This document shows, in pieces, positions 22,424 to 27,088 of a stretch of DNA of 64,000 bases. The number at the start of each line of letters is the position of its first letter. Within the stretch, counting starts at the first letter, position 1. The notes under the pieces were generated by a model. It did no database searches. It saw only the letters and a list, made by a program, of their open reading frames with translations, and was not told the DNA's origin. The position numbers and the translations under genes were made by a program. The stretch is from Streptomyces sp. NBC_01465 (GTDB lineage Bacteria > Actinomycetota > Actinomycetes > Streptomycetales > Streptomycetaceae), in contig NZ_CP109467.1 in assembly GCF_036227325.1 (NCBI RefSeq), forward strand, positions 6,262,001-6,326,000, given 5' to 3'.

Positions 22424-23425
22424 ATGGACATCGACGTAAAGCTTCTGAAGGGCTTGGCGAAGGAGAAGGAGATTTCCTTCGACCAGCTGGCCGATGCGAT
22501 CGAGTCGGCCCTCCTCATCGCCTACCACCGCACCGAGGGAGCGCGCCGTCACGCGCGCGTCAGCCTCGACCGTGAGAACGGGCATGTGACGGTGTGGGCG
22601 AAGGAGGACCCCGCAGACCTCGAAGAGGGCCAGGAGCCCAAGGAGTTCGACGACACCCCGGGCGACTTCGGCCGGATCGCCGCGACCACCGCCAAGCAGG
22701 TCATCCTGCAGCGGCTGCGCGACGCCGAGGACGATCTGACGTTCGGCGAGTACGCGGGCCGTGAGGGCGATGTCGTCGCGGGCGTCGTGCAGCAGGGCAA
22801 GGACCCCAAGAACGTCCTGGTCGACATCGGCAAGCTGGAGGCCATCCTGCCGGTGCAGGAGCAGGTCCCCGGCGAGGACTACACGCACGGGCTGCGCCTG
22901 CGCACGTACGTCGTCCGTGTCGCCAAGGGCGTCCGCGGCCCGTCCGTGACGCTCTCGCGCACCCACCCGAACCTGGTGAAGAAGCTCTTCGCGCTGGAGG
23001 TCCCGGAGATCGCGGACGGCTCGGTCGTCATCGAGGCGATCGCCCGCGAGGCCGGCCACCGCACGAAGATCGCGGTGCGCTCCACGCGCTCCGGCCTCAA
23101 CCCCAAGGGCGCCTGCATCGGCCCGATGGGCAGCCGTGTGCGCAATGTCATGGCCGAGCTGCTCGGCGAGAAGATCGACATCGTGGACTGGTCGGACGAC
23201 CCGGCCGAGATGGTCGCCAACGCCCTCTCGCCGGCCCGCGTCAACAAGGTCGAGATCGTGGACCTCGGCATGCGTTCGGCCCGGGTCACCGTCCCCGATT
23301 ACCAGCTGTCCCTTGCGATCGGCAAGGAAGGCCAGAACGCCCGGCTCGCCGCGCGCCTGACCGGCTGGCGGATCGACATCCGCCCGGACACCGAGCAGCC
23401 CGAGGCCGACGAAGACCGCGACTGA
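22424..23425 (+). CDS. nusA: Transcription termination/antitermination factor NusA
   Basis: A 333-residue RNA-polymerase-associated factor that controls pausing, termination and antitermination. The N-terminal polymerase-binding domain is at about residues 1-105, S1 at about 110-180 ([20 protein letters not shown]), then KH1 and KH2 ([40 protein letters not shown]). It lacks the C-terminal acidic repeats of E. coli NusA, as is normal for actinobacteria. It is translationally close to rimP. An AT-richer gap with possible promoter elements separates it from ylxR. Confidence 0.97.
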
Positions 23426-23503
23426 TCATCAACGACTGATCACAACATCCGTTCGATTTTTCCCCCAAAGGGGTGAGGTCGTTACGGGGAGGTAGACTTA
23501 ACC

Positions 23504-23788
23504 GTGTCTGGCCGTACGCATACTCCCGCGTGCCCTGAGCGAACCTGTGTGGGATGCCGGGAGCGAGCGGCCAAGAGCGATCTGCTGCGCATCGTCGCGG
23601 TCGAGGGCACTTGTGTCCCTGATCCGCGCGGTACGCTGCCCGGCCGGGGTGCTTATCTGCACCCCGCCTCGGTCTGTCTCGACCTGGCGGTCCGCCGCCG
23701 GGCGTTCCTCCGGGCCTTCAAGGTCCAGGGTCCGCTCGACAGCGAGACATTGAGCCGGTACGTCGAGCAGAGCACCGCAACACCGTAA
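23504..23788 (+). CDS. ylxR: YlxR/DUF448 RNA-binding protein
   Basis: A 94-residue YlxR-family protein with the diagnostic RTCVGCRERAAKSDLLRIV and GRGAYLHPASVCLDLAVRR. The family is small and basic, binds RNA and is always linked to nusA/infB; in Bacillus-type bacteria it influences rnpB expression or dehydrogenase genes. The start is GTG 23504. GGGGAGG lies 11 bases upstream, longer than usual. TAGACT at 23493-23498 could be a -10 element, so a short-leader or leaderless transcript is possible. Confidence 0.92.
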   Translation: MSGRTHTPACPERTCVGCRERAAKSDLLRIVAVEGTCVPDPRGTLPGRGAYLHPASVCLDLAVRRRAFLRAFKVQGPLDSETLSRYVEQSTATP

Positions 23789-23854
23789 GAAGAGAACGGC
23801 ACGGGACCCCGTGCGGTCAGGTACCTCGCGAGTTGGAAGTAGGTCGAGATTGCG

Positions 23855-23897
23855 ATGAGCACTCGATGAGTACGCGATGAGTACGCCCATGAAGTAG
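23855..23897 (+). CDS. Three overlapping micro-ORFs in the infB leader
   Basis: Three tiny reading frames are chained stop-to-start. ATG 23855 encodes MSTR and stops at 23869. ATG 23866 encodes MSTR and stops at 23880. ATG 23877 encodes MSTPMK and stops at 23897. Each new ATG overlaps the previous TGA as ATGA. The sequence is a repeated 11-bp unit (ATGAGYACKCG). A weak GTCGAG is upstream of the first. They end 39 bp before the infB start. They may be translated leader peptides or only a DNA/RNA repeat; translation is not shown. Confidence 0.45.
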
Positions 23898-23901
23898 CGA
23901 C

Positions 23902-23922
23902 GGTCCGGCGGTAACCCGGACC
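23902..23922 (+). promoter_or_regulatory. Hairpin just before the infB ribosome-binding site
   Basis: GGTCCGG (23902-23908) pairs perfectly with CCGGACC (23916-23922) around a 7-base loop. It ends 2 bp before AAAGGAG (23925-23931), the infB ribosome-binding site, and follows the micro-ORFs. Ribosomes on the third micro-ORF would stop next to this stem, so it could couple leader translation to infB translation. Confidence 0.5.
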
Positions 23923-23935
23923 TAAAAGGAGCGAA

Positions 23936-26900
23936 GTGGCTAAGGTCCGGGTATACGAACTCGCCAAGGAGTTCGGGGTTGAGAGCAAGGTCGTCATGGC
24001 CAAGCTCCAAGAACTCGGTGAATTCGTACGTTCGGCGTCCTCGACGATCGAGGCGCCGGTTGTACGCAAGTTGACTGACGCACTGCAGGGGCCCGGCGGC
24101 AACGCCGGCAAGTCCGCTGCAAAGCCCGGCGCGCCCCGCAAGGCGACGCCCTCGAAGCCCGCAGCGCCCTCCCCGGCGGCTGCGGCACGTCCTGCTGCCC
24201 CGAAGCCCGGCGCACCGGCTCCCAAGCCGGCCGCCGCCGAGGCCCCCGAGGTCAGCACCCCCGCGCCCAGCACCCCTGCTGCGGCGCCTTCCACGCCGGC
24301 GGCTGCCGGTCCGCGTCCGGGCCCCAAGCCCGCCGCGGCCAAGCCCGCCCCGGTGACTCCGGTCCCGGCCGCCGAGTTCTCGGCTCCGGCTCCGGCCCAG
24401 CCCGCCGCTGCCCCGCAGCAGCAGGCCCCGCGTCCCGCGGGTGCCACCCCCGGCCCGCGCCCCGCGCCCGCCCGTCCGGCTCCGGCCGGCGGTCAGCGTG
24501 ACGGCGGCCAGGGCGGCGCACGTGGTGGCGAGCGCGGCGGCGACCGTCCCGCGCGTCCCGCAGGCCAGGGCGCCCCGCGTCCCGGCGGCGCACGTCCGGC
24601 CGGTCCCCGTCCGGGCAACAACCCCTTCACCTCCGGTGGCTCCACGGGCATGGCCCGTCCGGGCGCGCCTCGTCCCCAGGGCGCCCCGCGTCCCGGCGGC
24701 GACCGCCCCGGTGGCGACCGTTCCGGCGCTCCGCGCCCGCAGGGCGGCCCCGGTGGCGCCCCGCGTCCGCAGGGTCAGGGCGGCCCCGGCCGTCCGAGCC
24801 CGGGTGGCATGCCCCGTCCGCAGGGCGGCGCCCCGCGTCCGGGTGGTGCTCCGGGCGGTAACCGTCCGAACCCCGGCATGATGCCGCAGCGTCCCGCTGC
24901 AGCTCCCCGTCCCGGCGGCGGCCCCGGTGGCCGTGGTCCCGGTGGCGGTCCCGGCCGTCCCGGTGGCGCAGGCGGCGCAGGCCGTCCGGCCGGCGGTGGC
25001 TTCCAGGGTCGTCCGGCAGGTCCGGGCGGCGGCGGTCGTCCCGGTGGCGGCGGCGGCTTCGGCGGTCGTCCGGGTGGCGGTGGCGCTCCCGGCGGTGGCG
25101 GCGGCTTCGGCGGTCGTCCCGGCTTCGGTGGACGTCCCGGCGGTCCCGGTGCCCGTGGTGGCACACAGGGTGCCTTCGGCCGTCCCGGCGGGCCCGCCCG
25201 TCGTGGCCGTAAGTCGAAGCGCCAGAGGCGCCAGGAATACGAGTCGATGCAGGCTCCGTCGGTGGGCGGCGTCATGCTGCCCCGTGGCAACGGACAGTCC
25301 GTCCGTCTGTCCCGCGGTGCTTCGCTGACCGACTTCGCCGAGAAGATCAACGCCAACCCGGCGTCGCTCGTCGGCGTGATGATGAACCTCGGCGAGATGG
25401 TCACGGCCACTCAGTCGGTCCCCGACGAGACGCTGCGGCTTCTCGCGGACGAGATGAACTTCGTCCTGGAGATCGTCAGCCCCGAGGAGGAGGACCGCGA
25501 GCTGCTCGAGTCCTTCGACATCGAGTTCGGCGAGGACGAGGGCGGCGAAGAGGCTCTGGTCTCGCGTCCGCCGGTCGTGACCGTCATGGGTCACGTCGAC
25601 CACGGTAAGACCCGACTTCTGGACGCGATCCGCAAGACGAACGTCGTTGCGGGCGAGGCCGGCGGTATTACGCAGCACATCGGTGCGTACCAGGTCGCCA
25701 CCGAGGTCAACGGTGAAGACCGCAAGATCACCTTCATCGACACCCCGGGTCACGAGGCGTTCACCGCCATGCGTGCCCGTGGTGCCAAGTCCACCGACAT
25801 CGCGATCCTCGTGGTGGCGGCGAACGACGGTGTGATGCCCCAGACGATCGAGGCGCTGAACCACGCCAAGGCGGCCAACGTGCCGATCGTGGTCGCGGTC
25901 AACAAGATCGACGTCGAGGGCGCGGACCCGACCAAGGTGCGCGGTCAGCTCACCGAGTTCGGTCTGGTGGCCGAGGAGTACGGCGGCGACACGATGTTCG
26001 TCGACATCTCCGCCAAGCAGGGCCTCAACATCGAGTCCCTCCTGGAGGCCGTCGTCCTCACCGCCGACGCCTCGCTCGACCTGCGGGCCAACCCGGAGCA
26101 GGACGCACAGGGCATCGCGATCGAGTCCCACCTGGACAAGGGCCGCGGCGCCGTCGCGACCGTCCTCGTCCAGCGCGGAACGCTGCGGGTCGGCGACACG
26201 ATGGTCGTGGGCGACGCCTACGGCCGAGTGCGCGCCATGCTCGACGACAAGGGCGAGAACGTGGAAGAGGCGGGTCCCTCGACTCCGGTCCTCGTCCTCG
26301 GTCTCACCAACGTCCCGGGTGCCGGCGACAACTTCCTGGTTGTCGACGAGGACCGCACCGCCCGTCAGATCGCCGAGAAGCGTGCAGCGCGTGAGCGCAA
26401 CGTCCGCTTCGCCCGCAAGGGTGTCCGGTTCTCCCTGGAGAACCTGGACGAGGCGCTCAAGGCCGGTCTGGTGCAGGAACTCAACCTCATCATCAAGGGC
26501 GACGCGTCCGGTTCGGTGGAGGCCCTCGAGGCCTCGCTGCTCCAGCTCGACGTCGGCGAAGAGGTCGACATCCGCGTCCTGCACCGCGGTGTGGGTGCGG
26601 TCACCGAGTCGGACATCGACCTGGCGACCGGCTCCGACGCGATCGTGATCGGGTTCAACGTCCGTGCGGCCGGTCGTGCCGCGCAGATGGCCGACCGCGA
26701 AGGTGTGGACGTCCGGTACTACTCGGTCATCTACCAGGCGATCGAAGAGATCGAAGCGGCCCTCAAGGGCATGCTCAAGCCGGAGTACGAAGAGGTCGAG
26801 CTCGGTACGGCGGAGATCCGCGAGATCTTCCGCTCGTCCAAGCTGGGCAACATCGCCGGTGTGCTGGTCCGCTCCGGCGAGGTCAAGCGCAACACCAAGG

Positions 26901-27088
26901 CGCGCCTGCTCCGCGATGGCAAGGTCATCTCGGAGAACCTCAACATCACCGGTCTGCGCCGCTTCAAGGACGACGTCACCGAGATCCGCGAAGGCTTCGA
27001 GGGTGGTATCAACCTCGGTAACTTCAACGACATCAAGATCGACGACGTCATCGCGACGTACGAGATGCGCGAGAAGCCGCGCGGCTAG
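23936..27088 (+). CDS. infB: Translation initiation factor IF-2
   Basis: A 1,050-residue GTPase that brings initiator tRNA to the 30S subunit and drives subunit joining. An N-terminal IF2 helix domain ([19 protein letters not shown]) is followed by a low-complexity Ala/Pro then Gly/Pro/Arg region (about residues 55-430). The G domain starts at residue 552 (GHVDHGKT), with DTPGHEAF and NKID. Domains II, III and the fMet-tRNA-binding C-domain follow ([37 protein letters not shown]). Start GTG 23936 has AAAGGAG 4 bases upstream. The leader holds micro-ORFs and a hairpin. A strong terminator-like hairpin lies downstream. Confidence 0.97.

Follow-up and report, generated by a model that had tools for sequence, protein, structure and literature searches.

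Overlapping micro-ORFs and two exclusive helices before infB in Streptomyces and its class: a possible translational attenuator of initiation factor IF2

How the level of initiation factor IF2 is set in bacteria other than E. coli is, to our knowledge, an open question, and the leader of infB in Streptomyces raises it in a specific form: what do the minute overlapping reading frames that precede this gene do for its expression? The window that we have analysed (the whole stretch of DNA, 64 kb in length) belongs to a genome of 9.1 Mb in a single contig and carries what we take, from their sequences, to be the genes rimP, nusA, ylxR, infB, rbfA, and truB, in this order. A preliminary description of this DNA had claimed three chained micro-ORFs (MSTR, MSTR, and MSTPMK) with ATGA overlaps, an 11-bp repeat unit, and a perfect 7-bp stem ending 2 nt before the AAAGGAG of infB. 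All of these are present: the chain lies at 23855-23897, the repeat unit is called by Tandem Repeats Finder, and the stem is formed by GGTCCGG (23902-23908) and CCGGACC (23916-23922), with AAAGGAG 2 nt further on (Table 1). Our analyses go beyond this description in two respects, viz. the chain is conserved class-wide and the downstream arm of the hairpin also pairs with codons of infB. The reading that we favor, at a probability of about 0.5, is that the leader acts as a class-wide translational attenuator of infB which would exert negative feedback on IF2.

Table 1. Parts of the infB leader and the flanking genes, with their positions in the window.
Feature	Position	Strand	Evidence
ylxR (rnpM-type) gene, upstream of the leader	23504..23788	+	
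Shine-Dalgarno-like stretch GGAAGTAGGT preceding micro-ORF1	23835..23844	+	anti-SD duplex energy
micro-ORF1 ATGAGCACTCGATGA, ATG AGC ACT CGA TGA, MSTR	23855..23869	+	
micro-ORF2 ATGAGTACGCGATGA, ATG AGT ACG CGA TGA, MSTR; ATGA overlap with the ORF1 stop	23866..23880	+	
micro-ORF3 ATGAGTACGCCCATGAAGTAG, ATG AGT ACG CCC ATG AAG TAG, MSTPMK; ATGA overlap with the ORF2 stop	23877..23897	+	
L arm GGTCCGG, 4 nt 3' of the ORF3 stop; partner of the R arm (infB predicted open)	23902..23908	+	covariation
R arm CCCGGACC, common to both alternative helices	23915..23922	+	
infB Shine-Dalgarno AGGAG	23927..23931	+	anti-SD energy
infB start codon GTG	23936..23938	+	
C arm GGTCCGGG within infB codons 3-6 (K V R V); partner of the R arm (infB predicted closed)	23944..23951	+	covariation, swap tests, MFE
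infB, translation initiation factor IF2	23936..27088	+	

Within the window, both strands considered, the infB leader holds the sole ATG chain of at least 3 frames; 30 rounds of dinucleotide shuffling of one strand produced a single such chain. A loose pattern (ATGA-N7-10-ATGA-N7-10-ATGA) has 8 matches genome-wide, 2 of which are the infB leader locus, vs. 7 matches for the reversed control pattern; the spelling is thus not rare alone, and it is the in-frame chain and its conservation that carry weight. A second chain is found in the same genome (L330; G000:C1:1191365-1191390, minus strand), where ATGACACGGCG-ATGACTCCGCG-ATGA runs into an apparent gene start.

The preliminary description had named a comparison with relatives as one of the tests by which it could be refuted; in this comparison, the ATGA overlaps prove to be retained in the genus as well as throughout the class. 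The genus search matched 143 of 150 genomes, from which 118 loci were taken, representing 117 genomes (the genome of the window appears twice, as L001 and as L039), and the three-link chain is present in 118/118. These loci include 13 sequence variants of the chain, some with codon-sized insertions and, in 22 loci, the synonymous change of AGT to AGC, and three linked frames are kept in each variant. For the remainder of the class, 92 loci covering 42 further family labels were hand-picked for family spread from 252 matched genomes (the labels f15, f16, and f21 lie outside the class sample). A chain of at least 3 frames is found in 90 of these 92 loci when GTG or TTG is also allowed as a start, and in 77 with ATG starts alone; under the same any-start test it occurs in 49 of 2130 shuffled leaders. 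None of the 42 labels lacks a chain-bearing locus (39 have one with ATG alone), and a leader of chained micro-ORFs hence precedes infB in all 43 family labels sampled in the class.

The two class loci in which the three-link chain is missing are L248 (2 links) and L343 (1 link). L343 comes from a small-genome member of the family label f25, while its f25 relatives retain the chain, and the small-genome members of f25 have chains with quite different peptides (e.g., MKLK, MSSFRL, and MRSYN in L339). Five loci of the label f4 use a GTGA link, in which MSTP is followed by a GTG frame and then by an ATG frame. Strong PPE matches are present in 2 of the 3 f4 genomes searched, both of the genus g4, which we take to be mycobacterial for this reason; weaker matches are seen in f46. 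The peptides and nucleotides of ORF1-ORF3 thus differ between lineages and the stop/start overlaps persist. Among other classes of the phylum, a chain of three is found in 0 of 16 usable loci and two links (any start) in two; the other 4 of the 20 loci (L257, L258, L259, and L265) were dropped because no start codon was found. The infB start codon is GTG in 118/118, 71/71, 21/21, and 114/115 loci of the sets within the class (324/325 in total, including the pattern matches listed) and in just 6/16 loci outside it. The last of these sets comes from a scan of contigs in which a single frequent spelling of the chain was sought and which gave at least 118 loci, of which 115 lie directly before infB (L124, L198, and L202 are not upstream of infB). 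Loci of this pattern set were selected for the presence of the chain and are excluded as evidence for conservation, and the set fixes ATGAG and CGATGAG, thereby inflating codon counts, so that codon counts are given for the class loci instead.

Several properties of these frames bear on whether they are translated. A chain is in frame by definition and its frames are limited to 15 codons by the definition of the search; the evidence therefore lies in the share of loci with a chain (208/210) and not in the spacings, of which 11 spacing/length combinations occur when the genus and class sets are pooled (98 distinct chains). ORF1 has a Shine-Dalgarno (SD)-like site: its anti-SD duplex has a median of -6.1 kcal/mol in the genus, reaching -4 or lower in 54/54 distinct leaders, and sites at this threshold are present in 87-100% of the leaders of three sets. 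For ORF2 and ORF3, SD-like sites are found in 0-3% of leaders vs. 27-31% at random positions, so that the chain resembles ORFs coupled by termination and re-initiation both in its overlaps and in its downstream frames lacking an SD. The gene infB itself is not joined by an overlap or a short gap; it begins 31-66 nt after the ORF3 stop, with all three residues modulo 3 represented (50, 44, and 35 of 129 distinct spacers), and has its own SD (median anti-SD duplex of -8.1 kcal/mol in the genus).

The ylxR stop, counted as a link when it overlaps the start of the first frame or equals the ORF1 or ORF2 stop, is built into the chain in 23/54 class and 2/109 genus loci with a readable ylxR, and in 27/106 such pattern loci among the matches listed; ribosomes leaving ylxR would here enter the ladder directly. 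In L068, L076, L097, L116, L171, L239, and others, the frame of ylxR continues into micro-ORF1 or ORF2, so that the micro-ORF peptide is the C-terminus of YlxR. A separate hairpin, GCACGGGACCCCGTGC, lies between ylxR and the leader at 23799-23814; its sequence differs among Streptomyces and, by eye, seemingly remains self-complementary. As the overlaps are conserved in the genus and the class, a translated leader is strongly favored over a non-translated repeat, which is unlikely to be what the leader is. The preliminary suggestion of a translated leader is accordingly strengthened by the comparison with relatives, and the tie to initiation or ribosome supply that it had also suggested is a plausible inference.

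Some codons are preferred within the chain. Of 170 class links, 105 have CGA before the overlapped stop, and of 255 class frames, 168 have AGC or AGT after the start; in 53 long gene pairs of the named loci that are coupled through ATGA, the corresponding counts are 14 and 20. In five window genes, both CGA (4/155 Arg codons) and AGT (1/78 Ser codons) are seldom used. Slow decoding beside the stop, or further pairing of AUGAG with the anticodon loop of initiator tRNA, might explain these preferences.

The hairpin that follows the chain may be half of a switch, in which the R arm CCCGGACC has two alternative partners, the L arm GGTCCGG and the sequence GGTCCGGG at infB codons 3-6; pairing with the latter encloses the SD and the start codon. 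RNAalifold, applied to the gapped alignment, placed just 2 pairs in its consensus and recovered neither helix; the named helices were therefore counted instead. In alignment A1 (63 of the 105 listed leaders), 91.3% of the cells of the R:C helix are paired, 26 of them compensatory, and 87.5% of those of the L:R helix, 30 of them compensatory; 0/500 shuffles reach these values of pairing and compensation, and sliding the partner by one base lowers the pairing of either helix to about half. Redundant as well as divergent leaders, 42 in all, are missing from A1, and a second count was therefore made on the full 105, where both helices are 86.5% paired (R:C 726/839 and L:R 636/735 cells), which is weaker than on the 63; the permutation mean is 82.1%, and 0/1000 permutations are as high. 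The R:C signal is clearest at the synonymous third base of an Arg codon, where C-G, U-A, G-C, and A-U pairs all occur; three family labels have G-C there, and two separate lineages have A-U. The double-sided changes (2) and further pair types (10) of R:C are often equalled by shuffles, and the L:R pair 104:143 is broken in 27/63 rows. Because shuffles ignore relatedness, leaders and coding starts were also swapped between representatives, one for each of 41 families; the native duplexes are stronger in 10/10 draws (z -4.9 to -6.1, 0/1000 permutations each).

The positions of these parts were followed in 226 distinct leaders, which include loci of the pattern set (among the matches listed) and exclude L094 (chain ending 116 nt before infB), L245, and L248. 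The hairpin starts 0-4 nt past the ORF3 stop in 217/226, and the leader:coding helix uses at least 4 bases of the 3' side of the hairpin in 183/226. This helix is shorter than 5 bp in 22/226 leaders, and one of at least 5 bp is formed by 90.3% of native vs. 85.5% of swapped coding starts; as swapped starts pair nearly as often, the conservation of these codons accounts for part of the pairing. In four Nocardioides-type leaders with a weak R:C helix (L125, L135, L179, and L182), the leader sequence CTCCTTCTGG is fully complementary to CCAGAAGGAG around the infB SD. The architecture and both helices are supported by comparative computation, which yields the arrangement of a translational attenuator, viz. 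exclusive helices that share the R arm and of which one closes the downstream ribosome-binding site.

Folding places a constraint on how such a switch could work. The minimum free energy fold of the window leader is R:C, even with no masking ribosome. When the L arm is masked in the 226 leaders, the mean accessibility of the SD goes from 0.621 to 0.617 and that of the start codon rises from 0.458 to 0.545; the accessibility of the infB codons falls from 0.348 to 0.282, and that of the swapped controls falls equally (0.493 to 0.418). Masking thus leaves the SD and start codon, on average, no less accessible, a result that speaks against the model in a purely thermodynamic form. Since R:C is favored in folding, the model relies on a kinetic win, with L:R forming first during transcription.

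The mechanism that we propose would operate as follows. A ribosome would start at micro-ORF1 through its own SD, or arrive from ylxR where the ylxR stop joins the chain, then terminate and re-initiate at the overlapping ATG of ORF2 and again at that of ORF3, both of which lack an SD. A ribosome at a stop codon covers about 10 nt downstream; given a hairpin 0-4 nt from the stop, a ribosome terminating at ORF3 should cover the L arm. The freed R arm could then pair with infB codons 3-6, which would trap the SD and GTG in a closed loop and leave infB untranslated. Where the ladder is not completed, L:R would form first and infB would stay open. In E. coli, according to passages of PMC2268962 and PMC12548453, IF2 and formylated initiator tRNA are required for re-initiation, and an excess of IF3 lowers it. 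As each re-initiation needs IF2 and initiator tRNA, arrival at ORF3 would drop steeply when IF2 is short, approximately as the square of the re-initiation step for two serial re-initiations, and the outcome would be negative feedback on IF2. From this arrangement we infer the direction of the effect (repression), the masking of the L arm, the closing and opening of infB, and the sensing of IF2.

The opposite direction, positive coupling, in which the ladder delivers ribosomes or unfolds the RNA so that infB translation follows that of ylxR or the supply of ribosomes, draws on the fact that its stop/start overlaps are a known form of coupling (in passages of PMC12548453 and PMC6728339) and that ylxR feeds the chain in some lineages. 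The last frame, however, ends 31-66 nt from infB (129 spacers), with a hairpin between them and a strong SD belonging to infB itself; ribosomes stop before the L arm and hence would not unfold R:C; and structure right after a stop correlates with lower coupling, as reported in part of PMC12548453. Given that overlaps are evolvable and that the last frame nevertheless lies at this distance, we prefer repression over the delivery of ribosomes to infB, which comes close to what the preliminary description had in mind; both the pairing of the R arm with codons of infB and the place of the ORF3 stop speak against such delivery. We regard positive coupling as unlikely.

Equally doubtful, in our estimation, is the same switch with a different signal, where ribosome recycling, formylation of initiator tRNA, IF3, or antibiotic stress, and not IF2, would be sensed. 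Formylation, too, is needed for re-initiation, which IF3 diminishes (passages of PMC2268962), and the enrichment of the rare codon CGA before the overlapped stops (105/170 vs. 14/53) is likewise in its favor, but the controlled gene encodes IF2, so that IF2 is the simplest signal.

A repeated motif (CGAUGAGY) that is not translated, but serves as a binding site for a protein or as an RNA structure, would be in keeping with the very high nucleotide identity in Streptomyces, where an identical 43-nt block is shared by 66/118 genus loci, and with the preference for AGC or AGT after the start (168/255 vs. 20/53), by which some primary sequence is favored beyond the frames. We consider it very improbable, however, because the overlaps survive changes in length, some lineages form the chain with unrelated sequence (L339) or with GTGA overlaps, and in several lineages the chain incorporates ylxR. 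That translation of the ladder merely covers the ylxR-infB gap, otherwise open, against Rho or RNases would fit any translated spacer, but it predicts neither two exclusive covarying helices nor a near-fixed distance from stop to hairpin and has hardly any likelihood.

Other types of leader were also considered. An amino-acid attenuator was rejected, as there is no run of regulatory codons and no plus-strand terminator; the search for intrinsic terminators in 23400-24000 gave none on the plus strand and one match on the minus strand. No sigma-70-type promoter was found in the same interval, no known Rfam leader or riboswitch matches the leader at E values up to 5, and no conserved stalling sequence was found in the leader peptides, which vary among lineages in all of ORF1-ORF3.

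Two known forms of control resemble the attenuator that we propose. In ermC-type translational attenuation, a leader frame is combined with helices that exclude each other and one of which shuts the ribosome-binding region downstream, and in the eukaryotic control of GCN4 and ATF4, re-initiation at several uORFs gauges the carrier of initiator tRNA. The infB leader shares with ermC a short frame and exclusive helices of which one closes a ribosome-binding region; it differs in that a terminating ribosome would close the gene, in having no conserved stalling peptide, and in its three chained frames. The ermC leader is named in a passage of PMC2965389, and the paired uORFs of ATF4 appear in a literature abstract. 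With GCN4 and ATF4, the infB ladder would share the use of re-initiation at several uORFs as a gauge of the initiator-tRNA carrier, whereas it is bacterial, based on overlaps rather than on scanning, has an RNA switch as its output, and controls the gene for the carrier itself. We tentatively suggest, by analogy, that the ladder of SD-less micro-ORFs and its three-arm switch are a bacterial counterpart of GCN4 which gauges IF2/initiator-tRNA capacity, although we think this somewhat less probable than the attenuator as such.

The overlaps are identical to those of termination-re-initiation coupling through ATGA or TGATG, in which the downstream frames also lack an SD (as described in parts of PMC6728339 and PMC12548453); the frames of the infB leader differ from known coupling in being at most 15 codons long (by the search definition), in forming at least 3 serial units, and in having no overlap in the last link to the gene. 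The rimP leader (in a passage of PMC2965389) belongs to the same rimP-nusA-infB operon but is a transcription terminator before rimP, whereas the infB leader occupies the ylxR-infB gap. Mycobacterial interspersed repetitive units are likewise actinobacterial small frames coupled by -4 overlaps, and, unlike the infB leader, which is tied to infB, they are mobile and occur at many genes (from parts of PMC12548453). No account of the infB micro-ORF leader was found in the open-licence papers searched. Coupling overlaps and attenuator switches are thus known, and a ladder of micro-ORFs placed before an initiation-factor gene seems to be a novel variation on them.

The infB leader offers a definite and testable wiring in actinobacteria of industrial and medical importance. 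The mechanism of bacterial re-initiation (by the 30S or 70S ribosome, and with what role of factors) is not settled according to part of PMC12548453, and the leader provides evolution-tested material with which re-initiation could be measured. If the GCN4-like reading is true, the ladder would raise the probability of re-initiation to a power, the codons of infB would serve as an arm of the switch, and an initiation homeostat would be present throughout the class that includes Streptomyces, Nocardioides, and the mycobacterial-looking genomes.
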